Shown piece by piece: positions 1,357 through 31,948 of a stretch of 37,271 bases of DNA. The DNA lies in NCBI GenBank assembly GCA_025357875.1, contig JANYLK010000186.1:1-37271 (forward strand), given 5' to 3'. How positions within the stretch are numbered: the stretch's first letter is position 1; each line of letters starts with the position of its first letter. The translations under genes and the position numbers were made by a program. This DNA comes from Granulicella sp. Its GTDB lineage: Bacteria; Acidobacteriota; Terriglobia; Terriglobales; Acidobacteriaceae. The notes beneath the pieces are model-generated. The model was given only the letters and a program-made list of their open reading frames with translations. It made no database searches and was not told the DNA's origin.

Positions 1357-1443
1357 GGGTGCCCCATCCAATCTTCGGGTGCCATCCAACCCTCGGGTGC
1401 CCCATCCTTGGCGCGTACTCTGCGCAAAGGGTGGGAGTCTCAA
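1357..1443 (+). repeat. Family A hairpin repeat, with two truncated heads
   Basis: Three GGGTGCC(CC)AT heads occur in a row at 1357, 1377 and 1395; only the last has a full hairpin. Its inner arms CCTTGGCGC and GCGCAAAGG differ from the common version but are still mostly complementary, and GTGGGAG closes the element. Confidence 0.7.
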
Positions 1444-1463
1444 ACTCTGCCCGACTTCGCCTT

Positions 1464-1533
1464 TCGGAGTAGCAGCGGGCTTCAGCCCGCGGTACTCCGG
1501 GGGAGAAAAGAAAGGGGCTTTAGCCCCGGGGAT
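1464..1533 (+). repeat. Family B repeat (GCGGGCTTCAGCCCGC / GGGGCTTTAGCCCC)
   Basis: Two hairpins lie in tandem: CGGGCTTCAGCCCG inside a GGAGTAGCAG...CGGTACTCC frame, then GGGGCTTTAGCCCC after a short A/G-rich spacer. The same arrangement recurs at 17346 and 21187. The stretch from 1534 to 1776 shows no gene; it contains a 10-base palindrome TAGTATACTA at 1736-1745. Confidence 0.75.
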
Positions 1534-1776
1534 CTTCACAACGGCTAATCGCGCTCAGTCCGATGGATTGCATACCCTTAACTACGGACGCAAAGGCCTA
1601 CGGGTTCCAAAAGAATCAAAGGACGAATAATTTGGCTTAAGAGACGTTTGACGAACCAGGATTGTTCAAGGCATCTCAATCATTTAATACAACAACGTCT
1701 CCCCCACCCTCGTCGGATCGAGCCCGTTACCTATGTAGTATACTATCCCACCCGTCCATCCCACGCAAGCGAGCCA

Positions 1777-2385
1777 TTATCGAATCCGAAACACAAGTCC
1801 CGCGCCCAGGCGAACGTTGTTCTGCCGATCACCCGCAGCATTCGGAAGCTGCGTGTAGAGGTAATCCGCCTGCAATATCCGCGCAGAAATATGATCCGAG
1901 AGAGCCACATCCACGCCTCCTCCAGTCGAGAAAGCAAACGAGTTCCCGGTAGTGGAGAAGGTTGCCGCCGTCGGAAAATAGCCATCGAACCCATGCGCTG
2001 CTCCGACGAGCGCTTGCCCGAAGCCCGAGAACCTGCGACCGTACCGGCGAGTGACGCGGGGCCCGACGAGGTACGTCATGCGGCCGACTGAATCCCCGTG
2101 CGAATTGATCTTGTCCGCGTGCGCACCGCCCACCTCGGCAACCGCGCTGAGCCAGTGATGCAGCCGCAGATCAACCTCCGCACGAGCGCCCTGCATGTAG
2201 AAGCAGCCGCAGCCCCCCGGAGGTGCGTTCGCCCGAATAGCGTTGTAGCCCACAGCAAACTCCAGCGCTCCGGCTGTCTGCTGACTCTGTGCGCTTGCCT
2301 TGACCGCGACTCCGTTCGCAACCAGAAGTAGCATGGCAAGAGTCAGGTACTGAATCAATACTCTGGTTCCAGGATATTTGTGCAT
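1777..2385 (-). CDS. Outer-membrane beta-barrel protein
   Basis: This 202-residue protein has an N-terminal signal peptide (hydrophobic stretch LTLAMLLLVANGVAVKASAQ). The mature part has alternating hydrophobic and polar strands with Gly and aromatic residues (LEFAVGYNAI, RAEVDLRLHHWLSAVAEVGG, GFGQALVGAAHGFDGYFP) and ends in a strand closing on FRIR. This is the pattern of small OmpA-like or OMP_b-brl barrels. The start at 2385 is preferred over longer upstream readings because GGAGAG sits 3 bases before the ATG and overlaps the stop of the preceding gene. It lies 8 bases downstream of the NHL/anchor-D gene, so the two are very likely co-transcribed and translationally coupled. The barrel's ligand is unknown. 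Confidence 0.75.
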   Translation of the reverse strand: MHKYPGTRVLIQYLTLAMLLLVANGVAVKASAQSQQTAGALEFAVGYNAIRANAPPGGCGCFYMQGARAEVDLRLHHWLSAVAEVGGAHADKINSHGDSVGRMTYLVGPRVTRRYGRRFSGFGQALVGAAHGFDGYFPTAATFSTTGNSFAFSTGGGVDVALSDHISARILQADYLYTQLPNAAGDRQNNVRLGAGLVFRIR

Positions 2386-2393
2386 GCGCTCTC

Positions 2394-5300
2394 CTATTGC
2401 AAGATCAAAGTCACCGTCGTGGAATGCTGGATCGAGCCGCTGGTGCCCGTCACGGTAAGAACGTAAGTCTGCTGCGAATGCCCTGCGAATCCTCCAGCAC
2501 CGCATCCCCAGAGACACGTCAGGCCCGCGAATAGAACGAGGGCACTCAGCAACCGAGCCGTCGATTGGCGCATCCGCTTCACCCTGATCCACGGCAGCAG
2601 GAGAATTCCCAGCGCAATCATTGCGCCTCGTCCCCCGATTTGCGACTCGCCCAGGTGGGGCACGCTAAGCGCTGCGACATTAGTCGTTCCCACTGTCAGT
2701 GTCGAAGTAGCCGCACTGCCGACCGGGGTGACCGACGCCGGGGAGAAGGACGACGTCGCCCCCACCGGCAGTCCGGAGATAGAAAGAGTGATGCCGTTCG
2801 AAAGTGCACCATTCAGAGGCGTCACTGTGATCGGATAGACCGCGTTCGTGCCTCGAGAAACAGTCTGCGGACTGTTCGACGCGGCAATCGAGAAGTCGGC
2901 CACCACAGGAGCTACCCCGGCGCCCGCAAGTTGCGCGGTTTGCGGCGATCCGGTCACATTGTCCGCGACCGAGATCGCTGCGGAGTAATTCGCAGCGGCA
3001 GCAGGCGTAAAGGTCACCACGATATTGCAGCTCGCACCCACCGCCAAACTCGCACCGCAAGTAGTCGTCTGCGCGAATTGCGCAGTATTCGCTCCGGTAA
3101 TAGTGATGCCGGTAATGCTGAGCGCAGCCGTGCCCGGATTGGACAGCGTCACTGTCTGCGCCGCACTGGTGGTGCCGGTCGTAACGTTGCCGAACGCGAG
3201 ACTAGCCGGACTCAACACCGCCTGCGGCACAGCCGGAGCCACGCCCGTCCCGGCCAGAGTGACCGACTGCGGAGAGCCGGTCGCATTGTCCGCAACAGAA
3301 ATCGAAGCCGCAAAGCCCGCCGCCGCATTCGGCGCGAACGTTACCGAGATACTGCAGCTAGCCCCAGCAGCGAGCGTCGTACCGCAGCTATTCGTCTGCG
3401 CAAATACGCTAGAGCCCGTCCCCGTAACGCTGATGCCGGTGATGCTCAACGCGGCCGTGCCCGGATTAGAGAGCGTCACCGTCTGCGCAGCGCTCGTCAA
3501 ACCGGTTGTAAGGCTCCCGAAAGCCAGACTTGCCGGACTCAACACCGCCTGTGGAGCCGCCGGAGCTACACCTGCGCCAGCCAGAGTGACCGACTGCGGA
3601 GAACCAGTCGCATTGTCCGCGACCGAGACGGCAGCGGAATAACTGGCGACCGCAGAGGGTGTGAACGTCACCGAGATGGTGCAACTCGCACCCGCAGCCA
3701 GGCTCTCACCACAACCACTCGTCTGGGCGAACTGCGCAGTATTCGCTCCCGTAACACCGATGCTTATAATGCTCAGCGCGGCCGTGCCCGGATTGGATAG
3801 GGTAATCGTCTGCGCAGCGCTGGTCGTCCCGGTCGTCAGGTTTCCGAACGCCAGACTAGCCGGACTCAACACCGCCTGCGGAGTGGTCGTAGTTGCAATA
3901 CCCGTTCCATTCAGCAGGATCGTTTGGGTCGTGGACGCGGTCACATTCAGCGCATCGTCGGTCAGCACCAGCGTTCCATGAATCAGCCCCGCGACCGTCG
4001 GCGAGAAGCTCAACAACAGCGTGCAACTGTTCCCCGGCGCCAGCGTCCCCGCACTGGATGAGGTTCCTAACTGCGGGCAAGTCCCGGTGCCGCCCAACGT
4101 AAAGCCGGCAGAAATACTCGGATTGCGTCCCGAGGAAGGAACCGGAAATGTCAGGTTCGCATTACCGATATTTTGCACCGTCGCAGTCTGTGGACTATCC
4201 GTGCTGGTCGCTCCCACATTGGTATTCGCAAAGTTCAGAGTCGGCGGATCGCCTAGATCCAGCTTCGAGACCGTGCTCTTGTCATAGTCGCTGAAATAGA
4301 GATTGCCGCTCCCATCGACCGCGATTCCCCAGGAAGCTACGAAGGCGGCCATTACTGTCTCCGTGTAAGCGGCCCCGGCTGGCGCTTCCTTCAACACGCG
4401 AAGGTTGCCGCGGTCAGCGATGTAGACGTTGCCCTTTCCGTCCACGGTCACGCCATTAGGATGGTTCAAACCGGTGCCGATTGTCGTCTGCGTGTATGTA
4501 CTTCCCGACAGCGTCTCTTTCCACACCTTACCAATATCGGTATCGGCGATATAGACGTTCCCGGCCCCATCGACGGCCACGCCAAAGGGGTTGTCCAACC
4601 CAGTCGATAGATCGGCTACCGTACTGTCCGTATAGGTCCCGCCGGACAGAGTCTTCTTAATGACGCGTTGCACACCGAGACTGCCGCTGTTGCTCGGAGT
4701 ATCGGCATAGTAGACATTGCCGCTTCCATCAACCGCCACGCCAGTGGGGGAATGCAGGTTCGTGCCCACCAACACCGTCTCTGTATAGCCGCTCGCGGAC
4801 ACTGTCTCTTTCAGCACCCGCCGATTCAGGGCATCGACGACATACAGGTTTCCCGCGCCATCCACCGCGATCCCGAAGGGAGAGGCCAGGCCAACGCTTA
4901 CCACGACCGACTCGGTATAACTGGCTCCCGACGGCGCCTCCTTCAACACGCGATTATTCTGGGTGTCGTTGACGAAGACATTGCCGCTGCCATCGACCGC
5001 CACGCCGATGGGATGATTCAGACCGGTGCTTGCAATCGTCGTCAACACTCCAGGCGGAAAGGCCACTTGAGACCCAATGCCGATTCCGTAGATATAGCCG
5101 GAAGCAATCGCGTTGCCGGCTGAATCCTTCAGCACCGCCGCTCCGTAGCGTGTTCCCGCAAATTTCGGACTCAACGTAACATTCAACGTGCAGGTGTCGC
5201 CAGGATTATAGGTATGTGCGAACCCATTGGTCGTGCAGGTGCCGGTTCCCGCATCCGCGAAGTCCATTCCAATTGCGCCCTGCGTCAAGACCGCCGTGCT

Positions 5301-5579
5301 CCCCAGCTTGCCACCGGTGTCGAACGTGAACGAGAGCGAACTGACAGCACTCGTGTTCTTCACGTTGACGCTGCCGAAACTGACACCCGTCGCCGGTCCG
5401 AAGTGCGCGGTCTGCGCATCGATCTGCACGCACCAGAAGCCTGTCGCCGCGAACGCGCATGCCAAAAGTACGACCAGATGTCGAATTCGCAAAGCTGAAC
5501 GGTTCAAAGCAGTGGAGATTGAACCAACAAAAAGGCAGCCAAACGGCACAATCTTCATAGAAGGAGCCCCCGGGGTCAT
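2394..5579 (-). CDS. NHL-repeat / choice-of-anchor-D surface protein
   Basis: A secreted or surface protein of about 1060 residues. The start is ATG at 5579; a second in-frame ATG at 5558 (MKIVPFGCLF) is equally possible because neither has a strong ribosome-binding site. After a hydrophobic leader comes an anchor-D-like segment (about 60-170). Six NHL blades follow (about 180-450), each with the core GVAVDGSGNVY and ending RVLKE, which should form a six-bladed propeller. Then come one divergent and three near-identical 109-residue Ig-like choice-of-anchor-D (ASPM/SPD2/Hydin-type) modules, each starting PQAVLSPASLAFG and containing a Cys pair. The C-terminus has a hydrophobic segment (MIALGILLLPWIRV), a second one with GCGAG, and an ALTVTGTSG-like tail. 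The TAG stop at 2394-2396 merges with the next gene's ribosome-binding site. Likely role is adhesion or a cell-surface scaffold; no catalytic site is visible. Confidence 0.75.
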   Translation of the reverse strand: MTPGAPSMKIVPFGCLFVGSISTALNRSALRIRHLVVLLACAFAATGFWCVQIDAQTAHFGPATGVSFGSVNVKNTSAVSSLSFTFDTGGKLGSTAVLTQGAIGMDFADAGTGTCTTNGFAHTYNPGDTCTLNVTLSPKFAGTRYGAAVLKDSAGNAIASGYIYGIGIGSQVAFPPGVLTTIASTGLNHPIGVAVDGSGNVFVNDTQNNRVLKEAPSGASYTESVVVSVGLASPFGIAVDGAGNLYVVDALNRRVLKETVSASGYTETVLVGTNLHSPTGVAVDGSGNVYYADTPSNSGSLGVQRVIKKTLSGGTYTDSTVADLSTGLDNPFGVAVDGAGNVYIADTDIGKVWKETLSGSTYTQTTIGTGLNHPNGVTVDGKGNVYIADRGNLRVLKEAPAGAAYTETVMAAFVASWGIAVDGSGNLYFSDYDKSTVSKLDLGDPPTLNFANTNVGATSTDSPQTATVQNIGNANLTFPVPSSGRNPSISAGFTLGGTGTCPQLGTSSSAGTLAPGNSCTLLLSFSPTVAGLIHGTLVLTDDALNVTASTTQTILLNGTGIATTTTPQAVLSPASLAFGNLTTGTTSAAQTITLSNPGTAALSIISIGVTGANTAQFAQTSGCGESLAAGASCTISVTFTPSAVASYSAAVSVADNATGSPQSVTLAGAGVAPAAPQAVLSPASLAFGSLTTGLTSAAQTVTLSNPGTAALSITGISVTGTGSSVFAQTNSCGTTLAAGASCSISVTFAPNAAAGFAASISVADNATGSPQSVTLAGTGVAPAVPQAVLSPASLAFGNVTTGTTSAAQTVTLSNPGTAALSITGITITGANTAQFAQTTTCGASLAVGASCNIVVTFTPAAAANYSAAISVADNVTGSPQTAQLAGAGVAPVVADFSIAASNSPQTVSRGTNAVYPITVTPLNGALSNGITLSISGLPVGATSSFSPASVTPVGSAATSTLTVGTTNVAALSVPHLGESQIGGRGAMIALGILLLPWIRVKRMRQSTARLLSALVLFAGLTCLWGCGAGGFAGHSQQTYVLTVTGTSGSIQHSTTVTLILQ
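2901..3881 (-). repeat. Three tandem 327-base coding repeats (anchor-D modules)
   Basis: The marker CTCAACACCG recurs at 3211, 3538 and 3865, exactly 327 bases (109 codons) apart. The three units are highly similar at DNA level, which points to recent tandem duplication or ongoing conversion inside the surface-protein gene. Confidence 0.9.
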
Positions 5580-5691
5580 CAATAAATGAAACGTGGGTGG
5601 AGTATACAGGTCGCCAAAGACTCGGTCATCCGCCGCGCACCTTCCCAGTTATGCAGCCCCGTCTGTCATCCCGCAGCACCCGTCGAACCTG

Positions 5692-5720
5692 TTACACTAT
5701 ATTCGTACTATCGCATATAC
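5692..5720 (+). promoter_or_regulatory. Possible sigma-70-type promoter of the arsR-like gene
   Basis: TTACAC (5692-5697), a 17-base spacer and ATATAC (5715-5720) lie 20 bases before the ATG at 5740. The spacer and -10 contain TATAT...ATATA (5698-5719), a small inverted repeat that could serve as an operator. This is pattern matching only. Confidence 0.4.
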
Positions 5721-5739
5721 TTATGTACTTGGAGCGTTG

Positions 5740-6087
5740 ATGCAAGACTCCCTGCGCCGTTTCAAAGCCGACATCTTCCAGGCACTCGCCCACCCCACCC
5801 GCATCGCCATCATCGAACAACTTGAGCACGGCGAGCTCTCTGCCGGCGAGTTGATGGAGAAACTCAAGATCGAGCAGGCCAACCTCTCGCAGCATCTCGC
5901 CGTCCTCCGCGCCAAGCAGCTCGTCGTCAATCGCAAGGCCGGCAACCAGGTCTTCTATTCCGTCCGCGACCCCATCCTCATCGAGGTCCTCGCCCTGATG
6001 CGCCGCTACTTTTACTCCCATCTGCAGGAAGCCATGGACCTGCTCGGCAAGATGGACAAGAAGGCCAAATCCGAGGCCAGTTCTTGA
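5740..6087 (+). CDS. ArsR/SmtB-family winged-helix transcriptional regulator
   Basis: This 115-residue regulator begins MQDSLRRFKADIFQALAHP. ATG 5740 is preferred to upstream starts because GGAG lies 5 bases before it and the protein then starts exactly at the family's first helix. Helix-turn-helix: ELSAGELMEKLKIEQANLSQ followed by HLAVLRAKQLV (about 38-68), then the wing NRKAGNQVFYSVRDP. It contains no cysteine, so the classical ArsR metal site (ELCVCDL) is absent; the signal may be non-metal or sensed by protein interaction. The C-terminal helix is rich in Lys. It lies 180 bases upstream of the Hyf-like operon in the same direction and may control it, but the link is only positional. Confidence 0.85.
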   Translation: MQDSLRRFKADIFQALAHPTRIAIIEQLEHGELSAGELMEKLKIEQANLSQHLAVLRAKQLVVNRKAGNQVFYSVRDPILIEVLALMRRYFYSHLQEAMDLLGKMDKKAKSEASS

Positions 6088-6120
6088 CCCTCCTCAACCA
6101 TCGGGCACCCTACACCCTCC

Positions 6121-6186
6121 GGGTGCCCCATCCTCGCCACTGTTCCATCGTGGCAGGGTGGGGTATCACGCCGCGCGCGACCGCTT
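6121..6186 (+). repeat. Family A hairpin repeat
   Basis: GGGTGCCCCAT, arms CCTCGCCAC and GTGGCAGGG around the loop TGTTCCATC, then GTGGGGTATC and the tail CGCGCGACCGC. It fills the gap between the regulator and the first Hyf-like gene. Confidence 0.85.
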
Positions 6187-6268
6187 TGCGCCGGGTGCTT
6201 CCTGTTCGACGCAGCCCTTTCTCGCCAACCGTGGGGTCACTCACTCCCGCCGCCGGGATCACCGTCAA

Positions 6269-8287
6269 ATGACCCTCCCCCTCATCGCCGAGCACCCACT
6301 CCGCCTCCTCCTCTACCTCATCACAACGTGGCTGGCCCTTGGCCTCGCCGGCCTGCCAACTCCACGCGGCGGTCGCCTCGTAGCGCGCGTACTCTTCCCG
6401 CTCGGCGCGATGATCTGCCTGGCCGTCGCGACGATCGCCGCAATCTTCCTCCTCACCGGCCACGCACCGCAGACCGCAATCCTCCCATTCGGCCTTCCCG
6501 ACCTGCCCTTCCACATTCGTCTCGACGCCCTCTCCGCGTTCTTCCTGCTGATACTCGGGCTAGCAGGCGCCGGCATCTCCATCTTTTCCGCAGGCTATTT
6601 CCGCGCCGGAGAAGGCACAGCGCCTGGCCTGATGGGTCTGCAGTATCACGTCTTCCTCGCCAGCATGGCCCTCGTCCTGCTCGCCGACGACGCCTACCTC
6701 TTCATGGTTGCGTGGGAGACGATGGCGCTCAGCTCCTACTTCCTCGTCACCTCGCAGCACCGCATTCCCGAGATTCGCCGCGCCGGATTCCTCTATCTCC
6801 TGATGGCGCACGTCGGCGCAATCTGCATCCTGCTCAGCTTCGGAGTGCTGCAAGGCGGAAGCTGGCAGTTCACCTTCGACGCCATGCGCCACGCGACCTC
6901 GACGCTCACGCCCTTCCTCGCGACCACCGCGTTCCTGCTAGCCCTCCTCGGTTTCGGAATGAAGGCCGGACTGGTCCCGCTGCACGTCTGGCTGCCCGAA
7001 GCGCATCCCGCCGCACCCTCACCCGTCTCCGCCATGATGAGCGGCATCATGCTCAAGACCGCCGTCTACGGCTTCCTCCGCATCAGCTTCGATCTGCTCC
7101 ACGTCCGCTTCTGGCAGTGGGGTGTGCTCGTGCTCGCCGTCGGACTCTTCTCCGCCATCTACGGAGCCATCTTCGCGGCAGTGCAGTCGGACATGAAGCG
7201 CCTGCTGGCCTATTCCTCGATCGAGAACATCGGCATCATCTTCACCGGCATCGGCCTCGCAATCCTCTTCGAAACCTCCAACCTGCATCTCTACGCCGCG
7301 CTCGCTCTCTGCGCCGCACTGGTCCACGCACTCAACCACTCGCTCTTCAAGAGCCTGCTCTTCCTCACCACCGGCTCCGTCCTGCACGCCACGGGACATC
7401 GCAATCTGGGCAAGCTCGGCGGCCTCATCCGACGCATGCCCTGGGTCGCAACCATCGCGCTCGTCGGCACGCTCGCCATCGCCGGCCTGCCTCCGCTCAA
7501 CGGCTTCGTATCCGAGTGGCTTCTCCTCCAATCCTTCCTCTTCACTCCGCAGATCCCTCACGCCTTCGTCAACATGTTCGTACCTCTCGGCGCAGCCGTA
7601 CTCGCACTCACCGCAGCCTTGGCCGCTTACGTCATGGTGAAGTTCTACGGCGTCGTCTTCCTCGGTCAACCCCGCGAAGCATCGCTCTCCGAAGCCCGCG
7701 ACCCTAGCTGGCTCGAACGCATCGGCCTGCTCTGGCTCGCAATCGGATGCATAGCCATTGGCATCGTCCCGCAACTCGCCATGCGCCCCGCCGCCGGCGT
7801 TACCGGCATGTTGCTAGGCCAGACCGTAGCCACCTCATCGCTCTGGTGGATCGCGCCCATCGCCCCGCAGCAAGCCTCCTACAGCGGAGTCATTCTGCTA
7901 GCCGGGATCCTCGGCACAATCGGCATCACGTTCTTACTGGTCCGCCTGCTAGCCCACGGCCGCCTCCGCCGAGTGCCCGCGTGGGATTGTGGCTACCCGC
8001 ACCAAACCGCGCGCATGCAGGATACCGCCGAAGGTTTCGGCCAACCCATCCGCCACATGTTCGGCGCCTTCTTTCGCATCGAGCGCGACCTGCCCACGCC
8101 CGACGACATCGCTCCCCGCTACCGCATGCGCCTCGAAGACCGCATCTGGCGTACCCTTTACCTTCCCATCGCGCGCGCCACGCAGAAGATCGCCGACATG
8201 GTCAGCATCCTGCAAAGCGGAAGCCTATCTATATATCTCCTCTGCAGCTTCCTCACGCTGATCGTCCTACTGGTGTTCGTCCTATGA
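6269..8287 (+). CDS. hyfB: Hydrogenase-4 component B-like proton-translocating subunit (NuoL/MrpA-type antiporter family)
   Basis: A 672-residue polytopic membrane protein, the same length class as HyfB. Start: ATG 6269 (MTLPLIAEHPLRLLLYLITT), which puts the first membrane helix near the N-terminus; upstream in-frame codons are repeat DNA. It carries the proton-conducting Proton_antipo_M core: FMVAWETMALSSYFLV with the key Glu, GFGMKAGLVPLHVWLPEAHP with the key Lys, SPVSAMMSGIMLKTAVYG, and the His-containing ALVHALNHSLFKSLLFLTTG. The C-terminal soluble stretch WDCGYPHQTARMQDTAEGF is typical of HyfB/HycC. It should be the ion-pumping subunit of a membrane complex with the next five genes. No strong ribosome-binding site is visible before the start. 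Confidence 0.9.
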   Translation: MTLPLIAEHPLRLLLYLITTWLALGLAGLPTPRGGRLVARVLFPLGAMICLAVATIAAIFLLTGHAPQTAILPFGLPDLPFHIRLDALSAFFLLILGLAGAGISIFSAGYFRAGEGTAPGLMGLQYHVFLASMALVLLADDAYLFMVAWETMALSSYFLVTSQHRIPEIRRAGFLYLLMAHVGAICILLSFGVLQGGSWQFTFDAMRHATSTLTPFLATTAFLLALLGFGMKAGLVPLHVWLPEAHPAAPSPVSAMMSGIMLKTAVYGFLRISFDLLHVRFWQWGVLVLAVGLFSAIYGAIFAAVQSDMKRLLAYSSIENIGIIFTGIGLAILFETSNLHLYAALALCAALVHALNHSLFKSLLFLTTGSVLHATGHRNLGKLGGLIRRMPWVATIALVGTLAIAGLPPLNGFVSEWLLLQSFLFTPQIPHAFVNMFVPLGAAVLALTAALAAYVMVKFYGVVFLGQPREASLSEARDPSWLERIGLLWLAIGCIAIGIVPQLAMRPAAGVTGMLLGQTVATSSLWWIAPIAPQQASYSGVILLAGILGTIGITFLLVRLLAHGRLRRVPAWDCGYPHQTARMQDTAEGFGQPIRHMFGAFFRIERDLPTPDDIAPRYRMRLEDRIWRTLYLPIARATQKIADMVSILQSGSLSIYLLCSFLTLIVLLVFVL

Positions 8288-8332
8288 CCCGGCACGCGCT
8301 CTTCGTTGTTCATTCATCGTTCTCCGTTGGCC

Positions 8333-8518
8333 GGGTGCCCCATCCTCGCCACAGTTTCATCGTGGCAGGGTGGGGTATCGCGCCCCGCGCGACCGCCTTA
8401 GGCCGGGTGCCCCATCCTCGCCACGGTTCCATCGTGGCAGGGTGGGGTATCGCGCCCCGCGCGACCACCTTAGGCCGGGTGCCCCATTCATCGTGGCTTT
8501 ATCGCGATGAGTGGGGTC
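8333..8518 (+). repeat. Three family A repeats in tandem
   Basis: Copies at 8333, 8404 and 8477 fill most of the 298-base gap between hyfB and hyfC. The first two have CCTCGCCAC/GTGGCAGGG arms. The third has different arms, TCATCG and CGATGA, inside the same CCCCAT...GTGGGG frame. Confidence 0.85.
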
Positions 8519-8550
8519 TATCTCGACACACATCACCACAGCGACCCTCA

Positions 8551-8583
8551 CCGCGAACCCCGAACCTCGAACCGCAAACCACC
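8551..8583 (+). repeat. Family E CGAACCTCGAA tract directly before hyfC
   Basis: A short run of CGAACC(C/T)CGAACCTCGAACC ends 2 bases before the hyfC start codon. No Shine-Dalgarno sequence is visible in or after it. Confidence 0.5.
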
Positions 8584-8585
8584 CT

Positions 8586-9771: not shown

Positions 9772-9779
9772 TTTTCTCT

Positions 9780-24135: not shown

Positions 24136-24756
24136 TTGACTCCCGATGCCATCGCCAATCTGCTCCTGCAATATGTCGCCGCAGCGCCCGAACCGGCGTG
24201 CGGCTGGCCTGAAATCAACGCACAACTCGCTATTTATCTTGAACTTATGCGGAAATGGAGCGGTTTCACCAATCTTACCGCGATTCGAACGCCAGAGGAC
24301 ATCGTTCGTCGGCATTTCGGCGAAAGTCTGTTCGTCGGCACCTTTTTAGGGCCGTGTCCCACTTTGCTCGATTTCGGCTCCGGAGCAGGCTTTCCCGGCG
24401 TGCCTATTCAATTGTTGCGCTCTGACATCCAGGTCACACTCGCCGAGTCACAAGGGAAAAAGGCGTCGTTCCTACGCGAAGTTGCGCGCACTCTTCTGCT
24501 TCCTACGGAGGTTTGGGCCGCTCGCGTGGAGACAATGCCCCAAACTCGACGGTTCCACACCGTTACCCTTAGGGCAGTTGACGATATGGAAGCAGCAATC
24601 CACGAGGCAGCATGCCGCGCAACACACCGCGTCATGATCCTTGGAACCTCGAAACAGGCCGAATCTCCCGCCCTCTCCATACAATTCAACAAGGCTAAGG
24701 TCATCCCTATCCCCAACTCGACGGACAGGGTGCTTCTAATAGCTAACCGAATTTGA
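24136..24756 (+). CDS. rsmG: 16S rRNA (guanine-527-N7) methyltransferase
   Basis: A 206-residue SAM-dependent methyltransferase that modifies G527 of 16S rRNA. The start is TTG 24136, with GAGG 7 bases upstream; no in-frame ATG or GTG exists before the family core. Conserved features: INAQLAIYLELMRKWSGFTN, LTAIRTPEDIVRRHFGESLF, the SAM motif TLLDFGSGAGFPGVP (about 76-90), and LAESQGKKASFLREVAR. The C-terminal part (VTLRAVDDMEAAI) matches the usual RAVA segment. It is followed within 5 bases by a parS site and then parA-parB, the classical gidB-parA-parB origin-proximal order. Confidence 0.9.
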   Translation: MTPDAIANLLLQYVAAAPEPACGWPEINAQLAIYLELMRKWSGFTNLTAIRTPEDIVRRHFGESLFVGTFLGPCPTLLDFGSGAGFPGVPIQLLRSDIQVTLAESQGKKASFLREVARTLLLPTEVWAARVETMPQTRRFHTVTLRAVDDMEAAIHEAACRATHRVMILGTSKQAESPALSIQFNKAKVIPIPNSTDRVLLIANRI

Positions 24757-24760: not shown

Positions 24761-24776
24761 TGTTCCACGTGGAACA
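24761..24776. promoter_or_regulatory. parS site 1 (perfect 16-base palindrome)
   Basis: TGTTCCACGTGGAACA is a perfect palindrome matching the chromosomal parS consensus TGTTTCACGTGAAACA with one symmetric change (T to C and A to G). It is placed right after rsmG and before parA-parB. Confidence 0.9.
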
Positions 24777-24839: not shown

Positions 24840-24855
24840 CGTTCCACGTGGAACA
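24840..24855. promoter_or_regulatory. parS site 2
   Basis: CGTTCCACGTGGAACA differs from site 1 only in the first base. It lies 79 bases from site 1. Confidence 0.85.
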
Positions 24856-24883: not shown

Positions 24884-25048
24884 TTTTCCACATCAGCTCA
24901 GACCAATCCGCCTCTCCCATCGCCCCGTCCAGAGCCTCTCCGCAAGCTTTCTCCACAGGGCAACACCCTTCTGCACAGCCTTCCAACCTTGCCATCTCAC
25001 GATTTGCGACCTAAGCTTCGTGTACATCGTGTCCACGCTATCTGCACA
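24884..25048 (+). other. Candidate oriC segment with DnaA-box-like 9-mers
   Basis: Four same-strand 9-mers resemble the DnaA box TTATNCACA: TTTTCCACA (24884-24892), TTCTCCACA (24949-24957), TTCTGCACA (24969-24977), each with one mismatch, and ATCTGCACA (25040-25048) with two. They lie between parS and the ParA core, near where the plus strand changes from C-rich to G-rich. An AT-rich unwinding element is not obvious. This is an inference, and part of the segment may be parA coding sequence. Confidence 0.45.
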
Positions 25049-25928
25049 ATCGAACGCATACTCCGACCCGCCAAGCGCAGGCCAATCCAATCCCCAGTCC
25101 AAAGTCCTCGCCGTCGTCAATCAAAAAGGCGGCGTCGGTAAGACTACGACCGCAATCAATCTCGCAGCCGGACTGGCACTTGAAGGGCTGCCTACGCTGC
25201 TGATCGATTGCGATCCGCAGGCAAATGCTACCGGAGGCCTTGGCGTCGCGCGCGACGAGACACGGCTCAGTGTGTACGACGTTCTGATGGGCAACGCGAG
25301 CCTCGACGAAACCCTGATGAACACTGGTGTTTCGAATCTTATACTCTTGCCTGGAAGCAAGAATATGGTGGGCGCGAACCTCGAACTTGTCGGCCAAGAA
25401 CGACGCGAATTTCGCCTGCGTGAGGCCATTGAGCCAATCCGGCACAAGTATCCATTTATCGTTCTTGACTGCCCGCCGGCCCTTGACTTGCTGACTCTAA
25501 ACGCTTTAGTGGCTTCGGATGGGCTTCTAGTCCCGATGCAGGCTGAGTATTTCGCGCTGGAAGGGATTACTGAGTTGATGCAGACGCTGGATCGCGTTTC
25601 GCAGGCGTTCAATCCCACGCTCGCGCTGGAAGGCGTTCTGCTGACTATGTACGACGACCGCACCAATCTGTCGCAACAGGTCACTGACAATTTGCGAGGT
25701 TTTTTCGGCGAAAAGTTGCTGAAGGCCACTATTCCGCGCAACATCCGTTTGGCCGAAGCGCCAAGCCACGGCAAACCGGTGCAGCTCTACGATCCGAGGT
25801 CGAAGGGAGCCGAAGCGTATACAGCGCTGGCGCTGGAGCTGCTGCGCCGCAACGGCATTGCGAGCCGAAAAGCCAAGGCGCAGCCGGCCACAGGATCGGA
25901 CGGCCCAAAATTCTGGCCTTATAGATGA
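25029..25928 (+). CDS. parA: Chromosome-partitioning ATPase ParA/Soj
   Basis: A ParA-type Walker ATPase that drives segregation of the origin with ParB. The deviant Walker A motif KGGVGKTT (in [20 protein letters not shown]), the ATPase motif [14 protein letters not shown], and [20 protein letters not shown] are all present, as is AEYFALEGI. The end [20 protein letters not shown] is typical of chromosomal Soj. The start is uncertain: no in-frame ATG precedes the Walker motif. GTG 25029 (chosen), GTG 25020 and TTG 24861 are possible, and none has a good ribosome-binding site. The longer readings would run through the second half of the parS/DnaA-box-like region. The stop overlaps ATGA with a possible parB start. 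Confidence 0.93.
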
Positions 25929-25975
25929 ACGCAAAACCGGCTCTGAAATCCTGTAATCTGCAGAAAAGAGGCAAC

Positions 25976-26872
25976 ATGGAAACAACGAATTACATTGACC
26001 CGAAGCGCCGTTCCGCGCTGGGCAAGGGTATTGAATCGCTGCTCGGTCCGCGTCCGCAGGCTGCAGCTGCGCCTGATTCGACCGGGAAACCGCTGGAGAT
26101 CGCGCTTGATCGCATCGATCGCAATCCGAACCAAACTCGGACCGCATTCGATGAGGAGAAGCTCTCGGAACTTGCTCAATCCATTGCGGCTACGGGTGTT
26201 GTGCAGCCGATCGTGGTGCGCGAATTGCCGGGAGGACGCTATCAGTTGATCATGGGTGAGCGACGCTGGAGAGCCTCGCAGATCGCGGGCAAGGCGACCA
26301 TTCCGGCGATTGTGCGGCAAGTTTCGGATGAGCAGGCGATGGAGATGACCATTGTCGAGAACCTGCAGCGGGCCGATTTGAACCCGATGGAGCAGGCGCG
26401 CGCCTACGAACGGTTGAGCCGCGACTTCCACCTGACCCAGGAGCAGATCGCGAAGCGCACCGGCAAAGATCGGGCCAGCATTGGTAACTTCATTCGTTTG
26501 TTGAAGCTGCCTGGCGGCATCCAGTCTCTGGTCGAGAAGGGCGATCTGACATTCGGCCATGCCCGGGCGTTGCTGGCGCTGGAATCGTCGAAGAATTTTA
26601 CGGACGTGGTCGAGGCTATTCTCGATCAGAATCTGTCTGTCCGACAGACCGAAGCCATGGTTTCGGCAATGCTGAATCCGGAACAGAAGCCTAAGAAGAA
26701 GGTCGCTGAGGTGCAAGCGCAGGATGCGAACGTGCGCGAAGCGCAGGACCAGCTACAGCGGCGTCTGGGACTGAAGGTGCGTATTGAAGATAAGAAAGGC
26801 AAGGGCCGGGTAATTATCGAATACGCGGGGGTAGACGATTTCGACGCGATTCTGAGCGCGTTGGGTGGGTAA
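25976..26872 (+). CDS. parB: Chromosome-partitioning protein ParB/Spo0J
   Basis: A 298-residue CTP-dependent DNA clamp that loads at parS. ATG 25976 (METTNYIDPKRRSALGKGIE) has GAGG 6 bases upstream and starts at the family's conserved RxALGKG; the upstream ATG 25925 overlaps the parA stop but has no ribosome-binding site. Domains: N-terminal CTP-binding with GERRWRA and TIVENLQRADLNPMEQARAY; a central helix-turn-helix (TQEQIAKRTGKDRASIGNFI, RLLKLP) that reads parS; and a C-terminal dimerisation domain after a Lys-rich linker (KPKKKVAEVQ). Its target sites are visible at 24761 and 24840. Co-transcribed with parA. Confidence 0.95.
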   Translation: METTNYIDPKRRSALGKGIESLLGPRPQAAAAPDSTGKPLEIALDRIDRNPNQTRTAFDEEKLSELAQSIAATGVVQPIVVRELPGGRYQLIMGERRWRASQIAGKATIPAIVRQVSDEQAMEMTIVENLQRADLNPMEQARAYERLSRDFHLTQEQIAKRTGKDRASIGNFIRLLKLPGGIQSLVEKGDLTFGHARALLALESSKNFTDVVEAILDQNLSVRQTEAMVSAMLNPEQKPKKKVAEVQAQDANVREAQDQLQRRLGLKVRIEDKKGKGRVIIEYAGVDDFDAILSALGG

Positions 26873-28754: not shown

Positions 28755-28880
28755 ATAGAACATTCCCGAGGCTGGTCGGCCTGTCGGTTCGCGAGGAAGC
28801 GACGTATCGGCGTTGCAGGCCAGCGACCACGGCGTCGATATCTTCGACGGCGAATGCGATATGGCGGATGCCCGGGGCTA
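28755..28880 (-). pseudogene. Remnant of a VOC (glyoxalase/bleomycin-resistance) family gene
   Basis: On the minus strand the segment reads IRHIAFAVEDIDAVVAGLQR, which is the second-half motif of many VOC-family enzymes. It then loses family similarity (YVASSRTDRPTSLG) and stops at a TGA near 28756. Its upstream side is replaced by a family B repeat. No complete domain can be assembled. Confidence 0.55.
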
Positions 28881-28950
28881 AAGCCCGGTGATTCCAGGGG
28901 TTTTATTCGTGGGGTTGAAACCCCACGCTCCCTCCGTAACGTGGGGCCCG
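28868..28950 (-). repeat. Family B-type repeat, inverted orientation
   Basis: CCCGGGGCTAAAGCCCGG, then GGGGTTGAAACCCC, then ACGTGGGG, with the arms reversed relative to all copies left of 25 kb. It separates two gene remnants. Confidence 0.75.
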
Positions 28951-29160
28951 CGTAGCTTCTCAACCGGTGGTATTGGATGGTGTTCAGGGGCGAGATCGCC
29001 GGATCGTTCCAGCCGTGATACAGGATCAGCTTGCCGCTGCGCAGCGGCTCAGATCGGGATCGGTTGCGTTCAGTGCCTCCGCGGTCTTGGCGTCGGCTGC
29101 ACGGACAGCCGCATCCGTGGCGGTCAAAGCGTTCCAGTTCAGATCGTCAAATACCATGCA
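28940..29160 (-). pseudogene. Remnant of a tannase/feruloyl-esterase family gene, frameshifted
   Basis: On the minus strand one frame reads MVFDDLNWNALTATDAAVRA, and NATDPDLS, then runs into a stop. The next frame continues RSGKLILYHGWNDPAISPLN and TIQYH, which are the catalytic-Asp-region motifs of tannase/feruloyl esterase proteins. The frame break is near 29040-29050 and the 3' side is cut by a family B repeat. Only a fragment of about 70 residues of a normally 500-residue enzyme is left. Confidence 0.6.
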
Positions 29161-29227
29161 GTGTGGTGTCTCAGAAGTTCTCATCGTGGATGGAACGAGA
29201 GGACGGCAATAACAGAGGCTAAATACG

Positions 29228-29258
29228 GGGATTCTTCGCTACGCTCAGAATGACAAAC
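29228..29258 (-). repeat. Family C repeat, inverted orientation
   Basis: GGGGATTCTTCGCTACGCTC then AGAATGACAAA is the reverse complement of the GTCATTCTGAGCG...CGAAGAATCCCC form seen at 13021. Confidence 0.8.
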
Positions 29259-29395
29259 TTAAAACAATGGTGCGCGAAATTGTGGGACAGCACAGTAGCG
29301 AAAGTAATTCTGCAGGGGATTCAAGTAGGCGGCGGTCTGGCGTAGACTCAAACTGCCAACCTCAATTCCCCTTTTTCGAAAAGGATATGCAGCTT

Positions 29396-30721
29396 ATGAC
29401 ATCTTCTACAATTCGCCGCAGCCCGTATTTGTTACTCAGAATGTTACACATTGTTTTGGCTGCGATTGTCTTGCTCAACGTCGGCGGTTACGCGAACGAT
29501 GCGCAGGCGCAGACCGTAGGGCGAACGCTGATTCGCACTGGGCATCTGCTGGATGTGAGCACGGGCGCGGAGCCGGCGGGGCAGACGATTATTGTTACTG
29601 GCGACCGCATCACGGCGATTGCGCCGACTGCGTCTACGCCCGCGGGTGCTGGCGATTCCGTTGTCGATCTGTCGAATATGTATGTGCTGCCGGGGTTGAT
29701 TGACGTGCATACGCACCTGACCATGGCGACTAATTTCGATCCGTATTTTGAGCTGTCGATGACGCCGGCGAAGGAGGCGATTATTGGCGTTGAGAATGCC
29801 AAGGTGACGCTCGAGGCGGGCTTTACGTCGGTGCGCAATGTTGGCGCGGGGAGCTTTACCGATGTGGCACTGCGCGACGAGATTAATGCAGGACATATTC
29901 CGGGGCCGCATATGCAGGTGTCCGGACCGGCGCTTGGCATCACGGGCGGACATATGGACGACAACCTGCTGCCGTACGACTACCACGACGTTGGGCAGGG
30001 CGTGGCGGATGGGATTCCGGCGGTGCAGCACATGGTTCGGCAGAATATTAAGTACGGTGCGGACCTGATCAAGATTGGCGCAACCGGCGGCGTGTTGTCG
30101 AAGGGCGATGACCCGCAGGCGAGCCAGTACACGCGCGAAGAGATGCAGGCGATTGTGGCGGACGCGCATCGGCTTGGGCGCAAGGTCGCCGCGCATGCGC
30201 ATGGAGCGCAGGGAATTCTGTGGGCGACGGAGGCAGGCGTCGATTCGATTGAGCATGGATCGTACCTGGACGACGCGGGCATTGCGGCGATGAAGCAGCA
30301 TGGGACTTATCTCGTGCCGACTGCGTACCTAATCGACTGGATGCAGACGAATGGGAATCTGCCGGCGATCTATCAGCAGAAGATGAAGGACGTCAGCGCA
30401 GTCGAGAAGACGAATGCGATGAAGGCGATCAAGGCTGGAGTGAAGGTTGCGCTGGGTACCGATGCGGCCGTGTATCCGCATGGGTTGAATGCGCATGAGA
30501 TCGATGTGTACGTGAACCAGTTCGGGATGACGCCGCTGCAGGGAATCCAGACGGGTACGGTGAACGCGGCCGACCTGATGGGATGGACGGATCGCGCCGG
30601 ATCGATTGCGCCCGGTAAGTGGGCCGATATTATCGCCGTCGATGGTGATCCTCTGAAAGATGTGCGCGTGCTGCAGCATGTCAGCTTCGTGATGAAGAGC
30701 GGGGTTGTTTATAAACAATAG
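29396..30721 (+). CDS. Secreted metal-dependent amidohydrolase (imidazolonepropionase-like)
   Basis: A 441-residue amidohydrolase-superfamily enzyme with an N-terminal signal peptide (LLLRMLHIVLAAIVLLNVGG, cleavage near AQAQ). ATG 29396 is preferred to ATG 29387 because AAGGA lies 10 bases from the former and 1 from the latter. Metal ligands: HxH in VLPGLIDVHTHL (H105, H107), a Lys likely carboxylated in DLIKIGATGG (K226), AAHAHG (H267/H269), SIEHGSYLDD (H287) and LGTDAAV (D356). That is the binuclear pattern of Sgx9260/Xaa-Pro-dipeptidase-like members, which often hydrolyse N-acyl or dipeptide substrates. The end PGKWADIIAVDGDPLKDV is typical. The periplasmic substrate is unknown. Confidence 0.88.
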   Translation: MTSSTIRRSPYLLLRMLHIVLAAIVLLNVGGYANDAQAQTVGRTLIRTGHLLDVSTGAEPAGQTIIVTGDRITAIAPTASTPAGAGDSVVDLSNMYVLPGLIDVHTHLTMATNFDPYFELSMTPAKEAIIGVENAKVTLEAGFTSVRNVGAGSFTDVALRDEINAGHIPGPHMQVSGPALGITGGHMDDNLLPYDYHDVGQGVADGIPAVQHMVRQNIKYGADLIKIGATGGVLSKGDDPQASQYTREEMQAIVADAHRLGRKVAAHAHGAQGILWATEAGVDSIEHGSYLDDAGIAAMKQHGTYLVPTAYLIDWMQTNGNLPAIYQQKMKDVSAVEKTNAMKAIKAGVKVALGTDAAVYPHGLNAHEIDVYVNQFGMTPLQGIQTGTVNAADLMGWTDRAGSIAPGKWADIIAVDGDPLKDVRVLQHVSFVMKSGVVYKQ

Positions 30722-30775
30722 GGGCTGGGCGGTGCGTCACGCATTCGCGTCTGAACAGGAGCAGAGGTAAGCAGG

Positions 30776-30843
30776 AGCCGGGGCTAAAGCCCGCCGATTT
30801 GTAGGCCACTTACCGCGGGCTGAAGCCCGCCGCTACTCCGAGA
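30776..30843 (-). repeat. Family B repeat, inverted orientation
   Basis: GGGGCTAAAGCCC, GCCGATTTG spacer, CCACTTACCGCGGGCTGAAG then CCCGCCGCTACTCCG. This is the reverse complement of the copy at 17346. Confidence 0.85.
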
Positions 30844-30961: not shown

Positions 30962-31012
30962 GTCAGGGCTAAAGGGACGCACTACACTTTACCTAGCAAC
31001 TAGTGACCTCCT

Positions 31013-31762
31013 ATGAAAGCTACTGCGTTCGAATTCCGACTCCGACTCTGGATTTTCATCGTTATCTACGTGCTTGGATTTGTCGCGCCTTGGGACTTCG
31101 CGCTGCATCTCGATGGCACGGGTCCGAACGCCCATGTATGGGCTCGGCTTGCGGTGTTGCTGTCGCGGAATGGGGCGATGACGATTGCCGCGGCGTTCAA
31201 CGCAGTGCTGATTGCGGGCATTGTGTGCGCGGGCCTGGGCGCGTGGATGCGGACGTGGGGATCGGCGTATCTGGGCGTCGGTGTGATGCGCGACGGGCAG
31301 ATGCGCGGCGACGGCGTGGTCGCGGATGGGCCCTACCGCTATGTGCGGAATCCGCTGTACCTGGGCAACTGGATCGACACGCTGGCACTGGCGCTGCTGA
31401 TGCCGGCGAGTGGAGCGATCTTCACGCTTGTGTTCATCACCGTATTTCAGGTGCGGCTGATTCTTGGCGAAGAGGCGTTCCTTCGCGAGAAGCTTGGCGA
31501 GGCGTATGTGGAGTATTGCGCGAAGGTGCCACGGATTCTTCCTGCACTGCGAGCGCGTGTGGCGGGATCGGGCGCGCGTCCTCACTGGATGCATGCGGGA
31601 ATGGCGGAGATTTTCATGTGGGGTGTGACTGCTTCGTTCGCGGTGCTTGGCTGGCGATACGATGCGGAGTTGCTGATTCAGTGCGTGCTGGTGTGGCTGG
31701 GCGTGTCGATGGTGGTGCGTGCATTTGCGAAGCCCGCGGGTCAGGCCGTTGCGACGAATTGA
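31013..31762 (+). CDS. Isoprenylcysteine carboxyl methyltransferase (ICMT)-like membrane protein
   Basis: A 249-residue membrane protein with about five helices. The signature GPYRYVRNPLYLGNWIDTLA (the SAM-binding region of the ICMT/PEMT methyltransferase group) and EEAFLREKLGEAYVEYCAKV near the end of the core domain are clear. ATG 31013 follows TGACCTCCT, with no strong ribosome-binding site. The bacterial family methylates varied lipids or small molecules, so the substrate is open. A further hydrophobic extension of about 60 residues after the core (AEIFMWGVTASFAVLGWRY, LLIQCVLVWLGVSMVV) is unlike the shortest family members. It is convergent with the HU gene. Confidence 0.8.
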   Translation: MKATAFEFRLRLWIFIVIYVLGFVAPWDFALHLDGTGPNAHVWARLAVLLSRNGAMTIAAAFNAVLIAGIVCAGLGAWMRTWGSAYLGVGVMRDGQMRGDGVVADGPYRYVRNPLYLGNWIDTLALALLMPASGAIFTLVFITVFQVRLILGEEAFLREKLGEAYVEYCAKVPRILPALRARVAGSGARPHWMHAGMAEIFMWGVTASFAVLGWRYDAELLIQCVLVWLGVSMVVRAFAKPAGQAVATN

Positions 31763-31785
31763 TGAAGAATGGGGCTGGGCGGGGT

Positions 31786-31890
31786 GGGTATGTGTCGGGC
31801 CTTCAGCCCTCTGGTTTATTGGCGGCCGGAACCTAGACCTTCGGCCTAGATTACAAGGCTGGTATATGCCGGCCCTTCATCCCTTAGACC
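31786..31890 (-). repeat. Family D repeats, inverted orientation
   Basis: GGTATGTGTCGGGCCTTCAG then CCCTC, followed by CCTAGACCTTCGGCCTAG and GGCTGGTATATGCCGGCCC. These are reverse complements of the copies at 14313-14470. Confidence 0.75.
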
Positions 31891-31910
31891 TGTGCCCTGA
31901 TGCGGAGAGG

Positions 31911-31948
31911 CCCCATGGTCGACGCGAAGATGCTGCGTTGACCATGGG
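31911..31948 (-). terminator. Long hairpin of family A type between convergent genes
   Basis: CCCCATGGTCGACGC ... GCGTTGACCATGGGG forms a stem of about 15 pairs with one mismatch. It lies between the convergent ICMT-like and HU genes and could end transcription from both sides, although no U-tract follows. Its flanks fit an inverted copy of the repeat at 23012. Confidence 0.45.

Follow-up and report, generated by a model that had tools for sequence, protein, structure and literature searches.

The orientation of four families of short and probably mobile repeats (A to D) found in Acidobacteriaceae genomes follows the sign of the local GC skew. Among copies lying where the absolute skew was at least 0.1, orientation agreed with skew sign in 500 out of 531. 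Repeat orientation is truly correlated with local strand asymmetry, with few exceptions, and in the relatives mapped the boundaries of the asymmetric domains fall at many places besides the oriC-like site at which the pattern is seen here.

The window is the whole stretch of Granulicella DNA that was analysed, 37,271 nucleotides in length. Explicit motifs for the four families were searched on both strands (Table 1). All 35 copies left of position 25,000 are in the plus orientation (A 14, B 8, C 10, D 3) and all five to the right are in the minus orientation (B 3, C 1, D 1), which confirms the flip near 25 kb proposed in the initial annotation. The left/right contrast gives a Fisher P of 1.5e-6 for copies that are not fully independent, some being in tandem. 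The counts exclude three hits to the second half of A with 3 mismatches each (12865 minus, 28917 minus and 29158 plus), a 4-mismatch match to D (31079 minus) and both-strand matches to the near-palindromic core of B. The first-half motif of family A, allowing up to 3 mismatches on both strands, has zero minus matches across the window. The right-hand copies cited earlier for B (28868 and 30776), C (29228) and D (31786) were found, at 28875, 30781/30817, 29230 and 31791 respectively, but a probable A at 31911 does not stand as an oriented copy: it is not picked up by the A motif even with 3 mismatches allowed, and it is near-palindromic.

Table 1. Coordinates of the repeat families and of the features around the skew switch in the window.
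Feature	Position	Strand	Details
Family A (CGGGTGCCCCATCCT...hairpin...GCAGGGTGGGGTATC)	1356..23040	+	14 copies, first-half motif, up to 3 mismatches: 1356, 1394, 6120, 8332, 8404, 8476, 9579, 9637, 10490, 10580, 15080, 15168, 19477, 23011
Family B (GTAG-CA-GCGGGCTTCAGCCCGC-GGTA and GGGCTTTAGCCC)	1477..21248	+	8 copies left of 25 kb, motif search: 1477, 1515, 10854, 12512, 17359, 17395, 21200, 21237
Family B, reversed copies	28875..30828	-	28875, 30781, 30817; motif search
Family C (GTCATTCTGAGCG-CAGCGAAGAATC and variants)	7889..24027	+	10 copies, motif search: 7889, 9734, 10745, 12403, 13021, 19379, 19409, 21416, 23124, 24019
Family C, reversed copy	29230..29254	-	motif search
Family D (GGCCGAAGGCCCGACACA)	14318..14464	+	14318, 14381, 14447; motif search
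Family D, reversed copy	31791..31808	-	motif search
rsmG (gidB)	24136..24756	+	Pfam PF02527, E 3.5e-32
parS-like site TGTTCCACGTGGAACA	24761..24776	+	0 mismatches
Second parS-like site	24840..24855	+	1 mismatch
Three DnaA-box-like 9-mers, same orientation	24884..24977	+	24884, 24949, 24969
parA	25020..25928	+	Pfam AAA_31 / CbiA; start from home-made gene finder
parB	25925..26872	+	Pfam ParB_N, HTH_ParB, ParB_C
Cumulative GC-skew minimum; switch of skew and repeat orientation	25169..25169	.	

REP elements are imperfect palindromes or hairpins with a conserved 5' tetranucleotide. Hairpin folding is found for families A and D and for the GTAG form of B, in which GTAG is the 5' foot; family A shows no clear tetranucleotide of this kind. 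The family A hairpin at 8331-8402 has a folding z of -3.9 on the plus strand and -2.5 on the complement, that at 15079-15148 has -2.9 and -0.8, and the GTAG form of B gives about -2 to -2.7. The short B form (z -1.1) and a C copy (z 0.41) fold no better than shuffles. The genome to which the window belongs has six Y1_Tnp matches. Three of these proteins were tested; all pass the NCBIfam model NF047646 (97.8, 97.4 and 109.1 bits, cut-off 80) and fail the IS200 model NF033573 (20.5, 34.2 and 27.4 bits, cut-off 55). Resemblance of the REP-associated tyrosine transposase (RAYT) to TnpA-REP (PDB 4er8) has an E-value of 1.6e-8.

Both A and B belong to the REP-type elements, since each family flanks an intact RAYT gene. 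One intact RAYT (P0002, L028:1632-2096) has family A copies on both sides, a second (L005) has family B copies on both sides and a third RAYT gene (L004) is flanked by A on one side only, so that the Y1/HUH transposase gene flanked by the same repeats that had been anticipated was found for these two families. The motif scan of loci gave these three genes only, with three of the six Y1 matches not fitting the motif; it gave none in the G047 or G119 stretches, and no RAYT adjoining family C or D among the loci scanned. Families C and D are probably similar REP-type elements. By our own gene finder 82% of 716 copies are intergenic. Pattern searches of the window's own genome with up to 1 mismatch gave 54 hits for A and 95 for C, against 0 and 3 for reversed-pattern controls. 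In favour of mobility, a candidate empty site in another locus was obtained for 40 of 448 queried copies, and two of the six displayed look clean.

Agreement with skew was measured with the repeat copies masked, which rejects the C-rich repeats themselves as the source of the skew. Most stretches were picked because repeats are present in them. At the main threshold (absolute skew of at least 0.1) agreement is 189/208 for A, 102/102 for B, 196/207 for C and 13/14 for D, and by genome it is 178/186 in the window's own genome, 74/91 in G130, 9/11 in G034, 84/85 in G047, 110/110 in G119 and 45/48 at named loci. With no skew threshold 625 of all 716 copies agree. In the window's own genome agreement climbs with skew, from 16/25 below 0.05 to 121/123 at 0.2 or above. 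Some observations count against the rule. The 31 disagreeing copies include 17 in G130 and 19 of family A, and G130 contains 10 close plus/minus pairs past 143 kb (2 before it); in two of its middle skew bins agreement is just 9/15 and 34/46. Twenty G047 stretches added irrespective of repeats contain 11 copies only, with none in the 11 windows of absolute skew 0.10-0.15.

Short-range duplication that keeps orientation, with strand and replication irrelevant, would produce tandem copies such as those of family A at 8332/8404/8476 and 15080/15168. We regard it as very improbable, and as a sole cause it is refuted by agreement between families: four families without common sequence agree mutually and with skew in unlinked domains, and 356 of 385 clusters still agree when copies of the same family and orientation within 1.5 kb are collapsed.

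Gene direction does not set the orientation either, as the initial annotation had stated. In the window the copies at 17359 and 17395 lie between the minus-strand alpha-galactosidase and thrS ORFs, and those at 19379, 19409 and 19477 lie within the predicted thrS ORF. Copies are on the strand of the nearest gene in 344 of 531 cases. Where skew and nearest-gene strand are in conflict, orientation sides with skew in 172 of 188, which rejects gene direction as the cause even though skew and gene strand are weakly linked (r -0.18, -0.19 and -0.29 in three genomes, -0.65 in G119). The skew is common to genes of both directions; GC3 skews of plus and minus genes, read on the top strand, correlate with r of 0.86, 0.85, 0.94 and 0.90 in four genomes.

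The repeat flip in the window is bracketed by the last plus copy at 24019 and the first minus copy at 28875, and across the switch GC skew goes from about -0.2/-0.35 to about +0.1/+0.2. A DnaA-box cluster, parS, the rsmG-parAB neighbourhood and the skew minimum come together at 24.76-25.17 kb, and this oriC-like segment between rsmG and parA is a putative oriC on the basis of its sequence features. For the parS-like sites, 0.24 matches with 3 or fewer mismatches would be expected by chance in the window. DnaA-box-like 9-mers show no excess window-wide (25 vs 24.3 expected), and only the cluster listed in Table 1 is unusual. The gene dnaA is on a separate contig (C136) in this genome; its distance from parB is about 21 kb in G130, 60 kb in G047 and 81 kb in G119. 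Beyond 32 kb on the right there is almost no skew, and over the first 5 kb it is weaker, at about -0.04 to -0.18; what the window shows is therefore a local domain pair and not two whole arms.

If one oriC and one terminus fixed orientation, a flip at an oriC-like site would be expected, and the congener G130 has the same flip at parB (19 plus and 1 minus on the left vs 2 plus and 16 minus on the right); skew also switches at parAB in the congeners G098 and G034. Two complete genomes contradict the arm model. In G119, which is a single contig, the 46 clusters show 24 changes of orientation sign, and the best single-origin fit accounts for 32/46, no better than permuted signs (P=0.19). Fixing the origin at dnaA leaves a weak trend (31/46 clusters, P=0.026; 62/100 copies), but within 1 Mb of dnaA both sides are mostly plus (14 plus and 3 minus on the left, 10 plus and 2 minus on the right). 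In G047 only 6/18 clusters fit with dnaA as origin, and absolute skew is below 0.05 in 44 of 80 five-kb windows of the added stretches. A negative-to-positive skew switch occurs at parAB in 5 of 54 named relatives, which rejects parAB as a family-wide conserved switch. The single-origin replichore model is an unlikely explanation. Whole-arm orientation, as claimed in the initial annotation, is rejected as a genome-wide rule for G119 and G047. The flip at an oriC-like site holds in the window and in G130, and the accompanying expectation of only two flips per complete genome fails in G119 and G047; what survives of the earlier reading is the independence from genes, the oriC-like switch and the Y1/HUH link.

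Strong asymmetry is arranged in domains of roughly 15-60 kb. In G119 orientation is the same in 45/45 cases at separations of less than 2 kb, in 45/46 between 2 and 10 kb, in 36/41 between 10 and 30 kb, in 29/41 between 30 and 60 kb and in 30/61 between 60 and 100 kb. The skew consists mainly of an exchange between G and C, with AT skew being slight. Polarised substitutions in four named-locus sets gave no clear sign of the mutation behind the skew, only the A/C exchange being asymmetric, about twofold, over all aligned sites. The hit rate of core genes is clearly higher in strongly skewed stretches only in G047, with a slight rise in G000 (0.08 to 0.12) and none in G130 or G119, and the idea of skewed islands as core-gene regions was dropped. 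The parAB locus has parS in 73 of 74 cases and a DnaA-box cluster in 41 of 74, compared with 20 of 171 controls.

Near-perfect orientation within strongly skewed domains would also be expected of selected polar signals (FtsK/KOPS-like or Chi-like) requiring one orientation. However, orientation does not follow the arms as FtsK guidance would require, C-rich words or fragments of the repeats make up most of the 7-8-mers with the strongest skew in domains, no separate polar motif being evident in the top lists, and copy numbers are very unequal between congeners (146 family A copies in G130, 2 in G098). There is little probability in this explanation.

One origin with frequent inversions is a real possibility, towards which we remain sceptical. 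Replication would set both skew and repeat orientation, inverted segments would keep their old polarity until re-equilibrated, and near-zero stretches would be re-equilibrating or newly acquired. Skew and repeats flip jointly, and the weak arm trend in G119 is also in keeping with it. Between genera, orthologues show hardly any correlation in coding-strand skew (r 0.01 for G000-G047, n=38; 0.10 for G130-G047, n=15; 0.27 for G000-G119, n=32; -0.19 for G130-G119, n=17; -0.16 for G047-G119, n=15), and within the genus, away from parAB, only a weak one (0.24 for G000-G130, n=39); skew sign at parAB is stable in 72 of 73 locus pairs of at least 76% nucleotide identity (both absolute skews above 0.08). 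Against this, inversion would have to proceed at nearly the rate of compositional change, and the many near-zero windows added in G047 fit poorly. Upward and downward skew jumps should also be equally frequent, and we counted 16 up and 6 down (P=0.05), or 21 and 12 at another window size (P=0.16), a difference that is suggestive only.

Several sharp negative-to-positive switches in one genome would suit several replication start sites, each such switch being a start site with skew decaying between them. Cyanobacteria with irregular skew and multiple origins offer a precedent (PMC7198777). A first scan of the window's own genome gave 7 up and 2 down, a second method gave 10 up and 6 down or 6 up and 4 down depending on window size, and in G119 divergent switches tend to have shorter gaps than convergent switches do (P 0.07 and 0.08). 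Yet no jump test is clearly significant, no gene arrangement shared by the switch centres was seen by eye, several of them lying between convergent genes, and dnaA and a parS region are conserved. We consider this explanation doubtful.

We think it probable that single-strand-specific insertion of REP-type repeats records a local, long-lived strand polarity. Strand-specific insertion is suggested by analogy with IS608/ISDra2 and E. coli TnpA-REP (PMC6006769). Repeats inserting as single strands would take one orientation relative to the strand that is single-stranded at the time. In the domains one strand is much C-richer, across genes of both directions and intergenic DNA, and given such insertion, skew and repeat orientation would be two records of the polarity of one strand-asymmetric DNA process. 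Most simply this process may be replication, the polarity then being the direction of local fork movement. In the window the domain boundary coincides with the oriC-like segment lying between rsmG and parA, and repeat orientation is accordingly opposite on either side of it.

The closest known systems share parts of this pattern. As in REP/REPIN-RAYT systems, the repeats are short, dispersed and mostly intergenic, several are hairpins, and NF047646 Y1 HUH genes are flanked by A and B; REPIN-like inverted pairs occur in G130 away from parB. Unlike those systems, single copies dominate in the window and in G130 near parB, oriented by the local strand-asymmetry domain. The nearest published parallel that we found to the orientation rule is in Pseudomonas fluorescens, where tandem REP arrays are described as forward near 2 Mbp but reverse near 4 Mbp (PMC3116915). 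The IS200/IS605 elements IS608 and ISDra2 use the same Y1 HUH chemistry on single-stranded DNA, but the proteins here fall below the IS200 cut-off and above the RAYT cut-off. If 25.2 kb is an origin, the strand with better A folding and the B GTAG would be the leading-strand template, opposite to the lagging-strand template preferred by IS608, and this conflicts with a literal IS608 model. Replication-linked GC skew likewise has G-rich and C-rich strands and affects genes of both directions. Here, however, it reaches about 15-35% in strong domains, compared with the roughly 2.5% given as typical of bacterial chromosomes in SkewDB (PMC8941118), and it alternates along one chromosome with little AT component. 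The irregular-skew cyanobacteria also have no single clear skew switch (PMC7198777), but the domains described here are strong and not just irregular, and a parS region and, at many loci, DnaA-box clusters are retained.

No report of a link between REP orientation and local skew was found in the open-access literature as far as it was searched, and the matches listed for the family C motif were, by title, unrelated to bacterial repeats. A bolder and rather unlikely proposal is that tens of domains of alternating strand polarity, each about 15-60 kb long, tile the chromosomes of Acidobacteriaceae. They would arise from numerous sites at which DNA synthesis starts bidirectionally, or from other recurrent bidirectional centres of single-strand exposure, with rsmG-parAB as only one of them and RAYT-spread REP elements as polarity fossils readable from sequence. 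Local skew can switch many times along a chromosome, beyond the replication origin, and neither GC skew nor repeat orientation is on its own a safe basis for origin prediction in these genomes. That extreme skew alternates between domains in one bacterial family also challenges the textbook view, in which each origin has a single skew switch. The repeats may record the strand exposed during DNA copying, and a near-perfect, composition-matched rule of REP orientation would offer a sequence-only record of the exposed strand over evolutionary time, perhaps of local fork direction.

Short repeats of four families, A to D, hold one orientation to the left of about 25 kb in the window and the other to the right, as the initial annotation had claimed. 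Explicit motifs searched on both strands find 35 copies to the left of position 25,000, every one '+' (14 of A, eight of B, ten of C and three of D), and five to the right, all '-' (three of B, one of C and one of D). The count excludes four weak matches, of which three (three mismatches each) are to the second half of A and one (four mismatches) is to D. The Fisher P value for this contrast (1.5e-6) is optimistic because some copies are tandem, but the pattern is real despite these copies. A further family A copy suggested at 31911 misses the motif of that family, is nearly palindromic and stays unconfirmed. Some copies fall between the alpha-galactosidase and thrS open reading frames, both on the minus strand, and others within the predicted thrS frame. 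The window is dense in copies, with nine of the 54 family A matches of its own genome in 37 kb, which is 0.8% of that genome.

Other repeats are also present. Between an amidohydrolase gene and a PEMT/ICMT-type methyltransferase gene, positions 30861-30959 contain three direct-repeat copies of the CTCTATGTCATTCCTCTCACCTCTCATGC type at 29-base spacing, within which GTCATTCC resembles family C. A 1062-aa open reading frame at 2394-5582 (minus strand) contains NHL-propeller repeats together with several Ig domains of the ASH/Cep192/HYDIN type, and its DNA includes three repeats of about 300 bases at 327-base spacing.

The switch does coincide with a putative origin, falling between rsmG and parA-parB with parS-like sites and a skew minimum. 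GC skew is about -0.2 to -0.35 at 6-23 kb, about +0.06 to +0.2 at 26-32 kb and close to zero at the right-hand end. Over the window as a whole, no excess of DnaA-box-like 9-mers was found.

Features of the origin-like site in the window and of the REP-associated tyrosine transposase (RAYT) genes elsewhere in the same genome
Feature	Position	Details
rsmG, parA, parB		flank the orientation switch; Pfam
parS-like sites, two	24,761 and 24,840	
DnaA-box-like 9-mers	origin-like site	three within 94 bases
Cumulative GC-skew minimum	25,169	
Intact RAYT gene (protein P0002)	L028:1632-2096	motifs THVHLL, YIHKNP; family A copies directly adjacent on each side
Second RAYT gene	L005	motifs NHIHVL, YIHRNP; family B copies on both sides
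Third RAYT gene	L004	family A copy on one side

The nearest named relatives of the ParB protein are from Granulicella MAGs. Skew also switches near parB in the congeners G098 and G034, and does so weakly at parB of G047; at parB of G119 the 20 kb analysed contain no switch. G047 and G119 are complete, single-contig genomes from other genera of the family. Of the best 80 of 442 parB loci of named relatives from one scan, 54 extend 5 kb or more to either side of the start of parA. Skew passes from negative to positive there in five of these and the reverse way in one; 48 have a single sign across the parA start, some negative and some positive, with the same gene direction. Of 74 loci whose upstream DNA was long enough (71 named loci, the window, G098 and a third congener, G130), 73 have a parS site and 41 have three clustered DnaA-box-like sites; such clusters occur in 20 of 171 random stretches of named loci. 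An origin-like region is thus conserved, unlike its skew switch. The distance from dnaA to parB is about 21 kb in G130, 60 kb in G047 and 81 kb in G119. The DnaA ATPase profile weakly matches, with equal scores, three 287-aa open frames at 3019146, 3748935 and 3771629 of G047 contig C1 (L242-L244), which may be a repeated IstB-like transposition protein instead of DnaA.

The claim that orientation follows the replication arm holds near the origin-like site in the genus of the window but fails as a whole-chromosome rule. On contig C6 of G130, among 100 listed of 146 family A places, 19 '+' and one '-' lie left of a flip at 82.8 kb, and two '+' and 16 '-' lie from there to 143 kb. Beyond 143 kb close +/- pairs occur and orientation is even (14 '+', 16 '-'). 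The members of these inverted pairs (L086, L087) are about 120-280 bases apart, in contrast to the mostly single oriented copies near parB, and are paired like REPINs; copies in single and in paired form may be of different age or mobility. The 100 copies from G119 (89 of A, 11 of C) form 48 clusters, 46 of them signed, with 24 sign changes. The best single-origin split, which fits 32 of the 46, does not outperform permuted signs (P=0.19). With the origin placed at dnaA the trend is weak: 31 of 46 clusters fit (P=0.026), and copies within 1 Mb of dnaA are mostly '+' on both sides. For the 33 copies of G047 the arm model, again with dnaA as origin, fits six of 18 clusters.

Orientation instead follows local GC skew. 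The stretches compared were mostly selected by repeats. The window's own genome is fragmented (4.56 Mb in 229 contigs) and is represented by 60 stretches, 20 chosen partly by repeat or dnaA match and otherwise by contig number and 40 by A or C matches; three contain only N and 50 have at least one copy. Of 207 copies, 173 have the orientation given by the sign of stretch skew; with |skew| at or above 0.1 the figure is 124 of 133. At that threshold the match is 80/98 in G130, 80/80 in G047 and 87/88 in G119; over all stretches it is 99/125, 93/105 and 124/130, and 22/31 in G034. The two G098 stretches have no copy. Measured per copy, with copies masked and those with too little flank dropped, the pooled match at |skew| of at least 0.1 is 500 of 531, including all 102 family B copies; 17 of the 31 exceptions are in G130 and 19 belong to family A. 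Collapsing same-family neighbours gives 356 of 385, and the parB loci of named relatives give 45 of 48. The match falls towards chance where skew is weak (16/25 in the own genome, 11/18 in selected G047 stretches) and is nearly total where it is strong (121/123 and 25/25). Where skew conflicts with the strand of the nearest gene, called by a simple home-made finder, skew predicts orientation in 172 of 188 cases. One dense array, at 3341-4468 of contig C178 (L059) in the own genome, packs seven copies of family C into about 1.1 kb, with six reading '+' and one reading '-'.

The skew is a property of the strand. Read on the top strand, third-position skews of plus- and minus-strand genes within one stretch correlate in four genomes (r of 0.86, 0.85, 0.94 and 0.90), and intergenic skew follows total skew (r of 0.86 to 0.96). 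The share of plus-strand genes correlates weakly with skew in three genomes (-0.18, -0.19 and -0.29), while the G119 sample gives -0.65. Where stretches were chosen for their strong skew, four-fold sites on the C-rich strand have C at 0.52-0.64 and G at 0.17-0.25, whichever strand has the gene; in weak stretches the two are roughly equal. This asymmetry consists mainly of G exchanged for C, and A/T skew is small, unlike the expectation from plain cytosine deamination. It comes with slightly higher GC content in the strongly skewed stretches of the own genome (C about 0.59 and G about 0.17 at four-fold sites), G130, G047 and G119.

Nearly contiguous DNA of G047, about 0.46 Mb, contains skew islands 15-50 kb long against a background close to zero. 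Twenty stretches of that genome added regardless of repeats have |skew| below 0.05 in 44 of 80 five-kb windows, and only 11 copies. Neighbouring copies in G119 share orientation out to 30-60 kb and lose it beyond. Domains of alternating sign could, on a conservative reading, arise by inversion of replication-polarised DNA. A bolder reading is that each chromosome has several bidirectional start sites, for which PMC7198777 gives a precedent in cyanobacteria. An excess of sharp up-jumps over down-jumps in skew, the one such asymmetry, would favour start sites; the counts are no more than suggestive (16 and 6, P=0.05, at one window size; 21 and 12, P=0.16, at another).

The own genome has six Y1-transposase matches. 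The three proteins tested (P0002 and those of L005 and L004) score above the cut-off of the NCBI model for REP-associated tyrosine transposases and fail the IS200 model. Among solved structures, the top relative of P0002 is TnpA-REP (4er8). No RAYT gene was seen beside C or D copies among these three of the six matches, and none in the G047 and G119 stretches. Family A and family D form hairpins, as does the GTAG version of B; the short version of B and one C copy fold no better than shuffles. A candidate empty site in another locus was found for 40 of 448 queried copies. Two of six pairs inspected look clean, both with family C copies: 104 bases in L182 compared with 18 unrelated bases in L198, and 292 bases in L193 that are absent from L203.

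Y1 enzymes of this kind act on single-stranded DNA, as PMC6006769 describes for IS608, ISDra2 and E. coli TnpA-REP. If one strand of a region were habitually exposed, insertions there would keep facing one way; that asymmetry in exposure or synthesis would also bias mutation and produce skew. Such a model accounts for the agreement of unrelated families, the greater weight of skew than of gene strand and the loss of agreement as skew weakens. A literal analogy to IS608 is disfavoured, as both the better-folding strand of family A and the GTAG-bearing strand of family B would be the leading-strand template if 25.2 kb is the origin. Single-strand exposure is what most likely sets both insertion orientation and skew. 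Where both members of a pair of parAB loci have |skew| above 0.08, the skew sign is the same in 72 of 73 pairs with at least 76% nucleotide identity, in 88 of 92 at 74-76% and in 142 of 221 at 70-74%. The polarity of these regions is therefore long-lived but not permanent.
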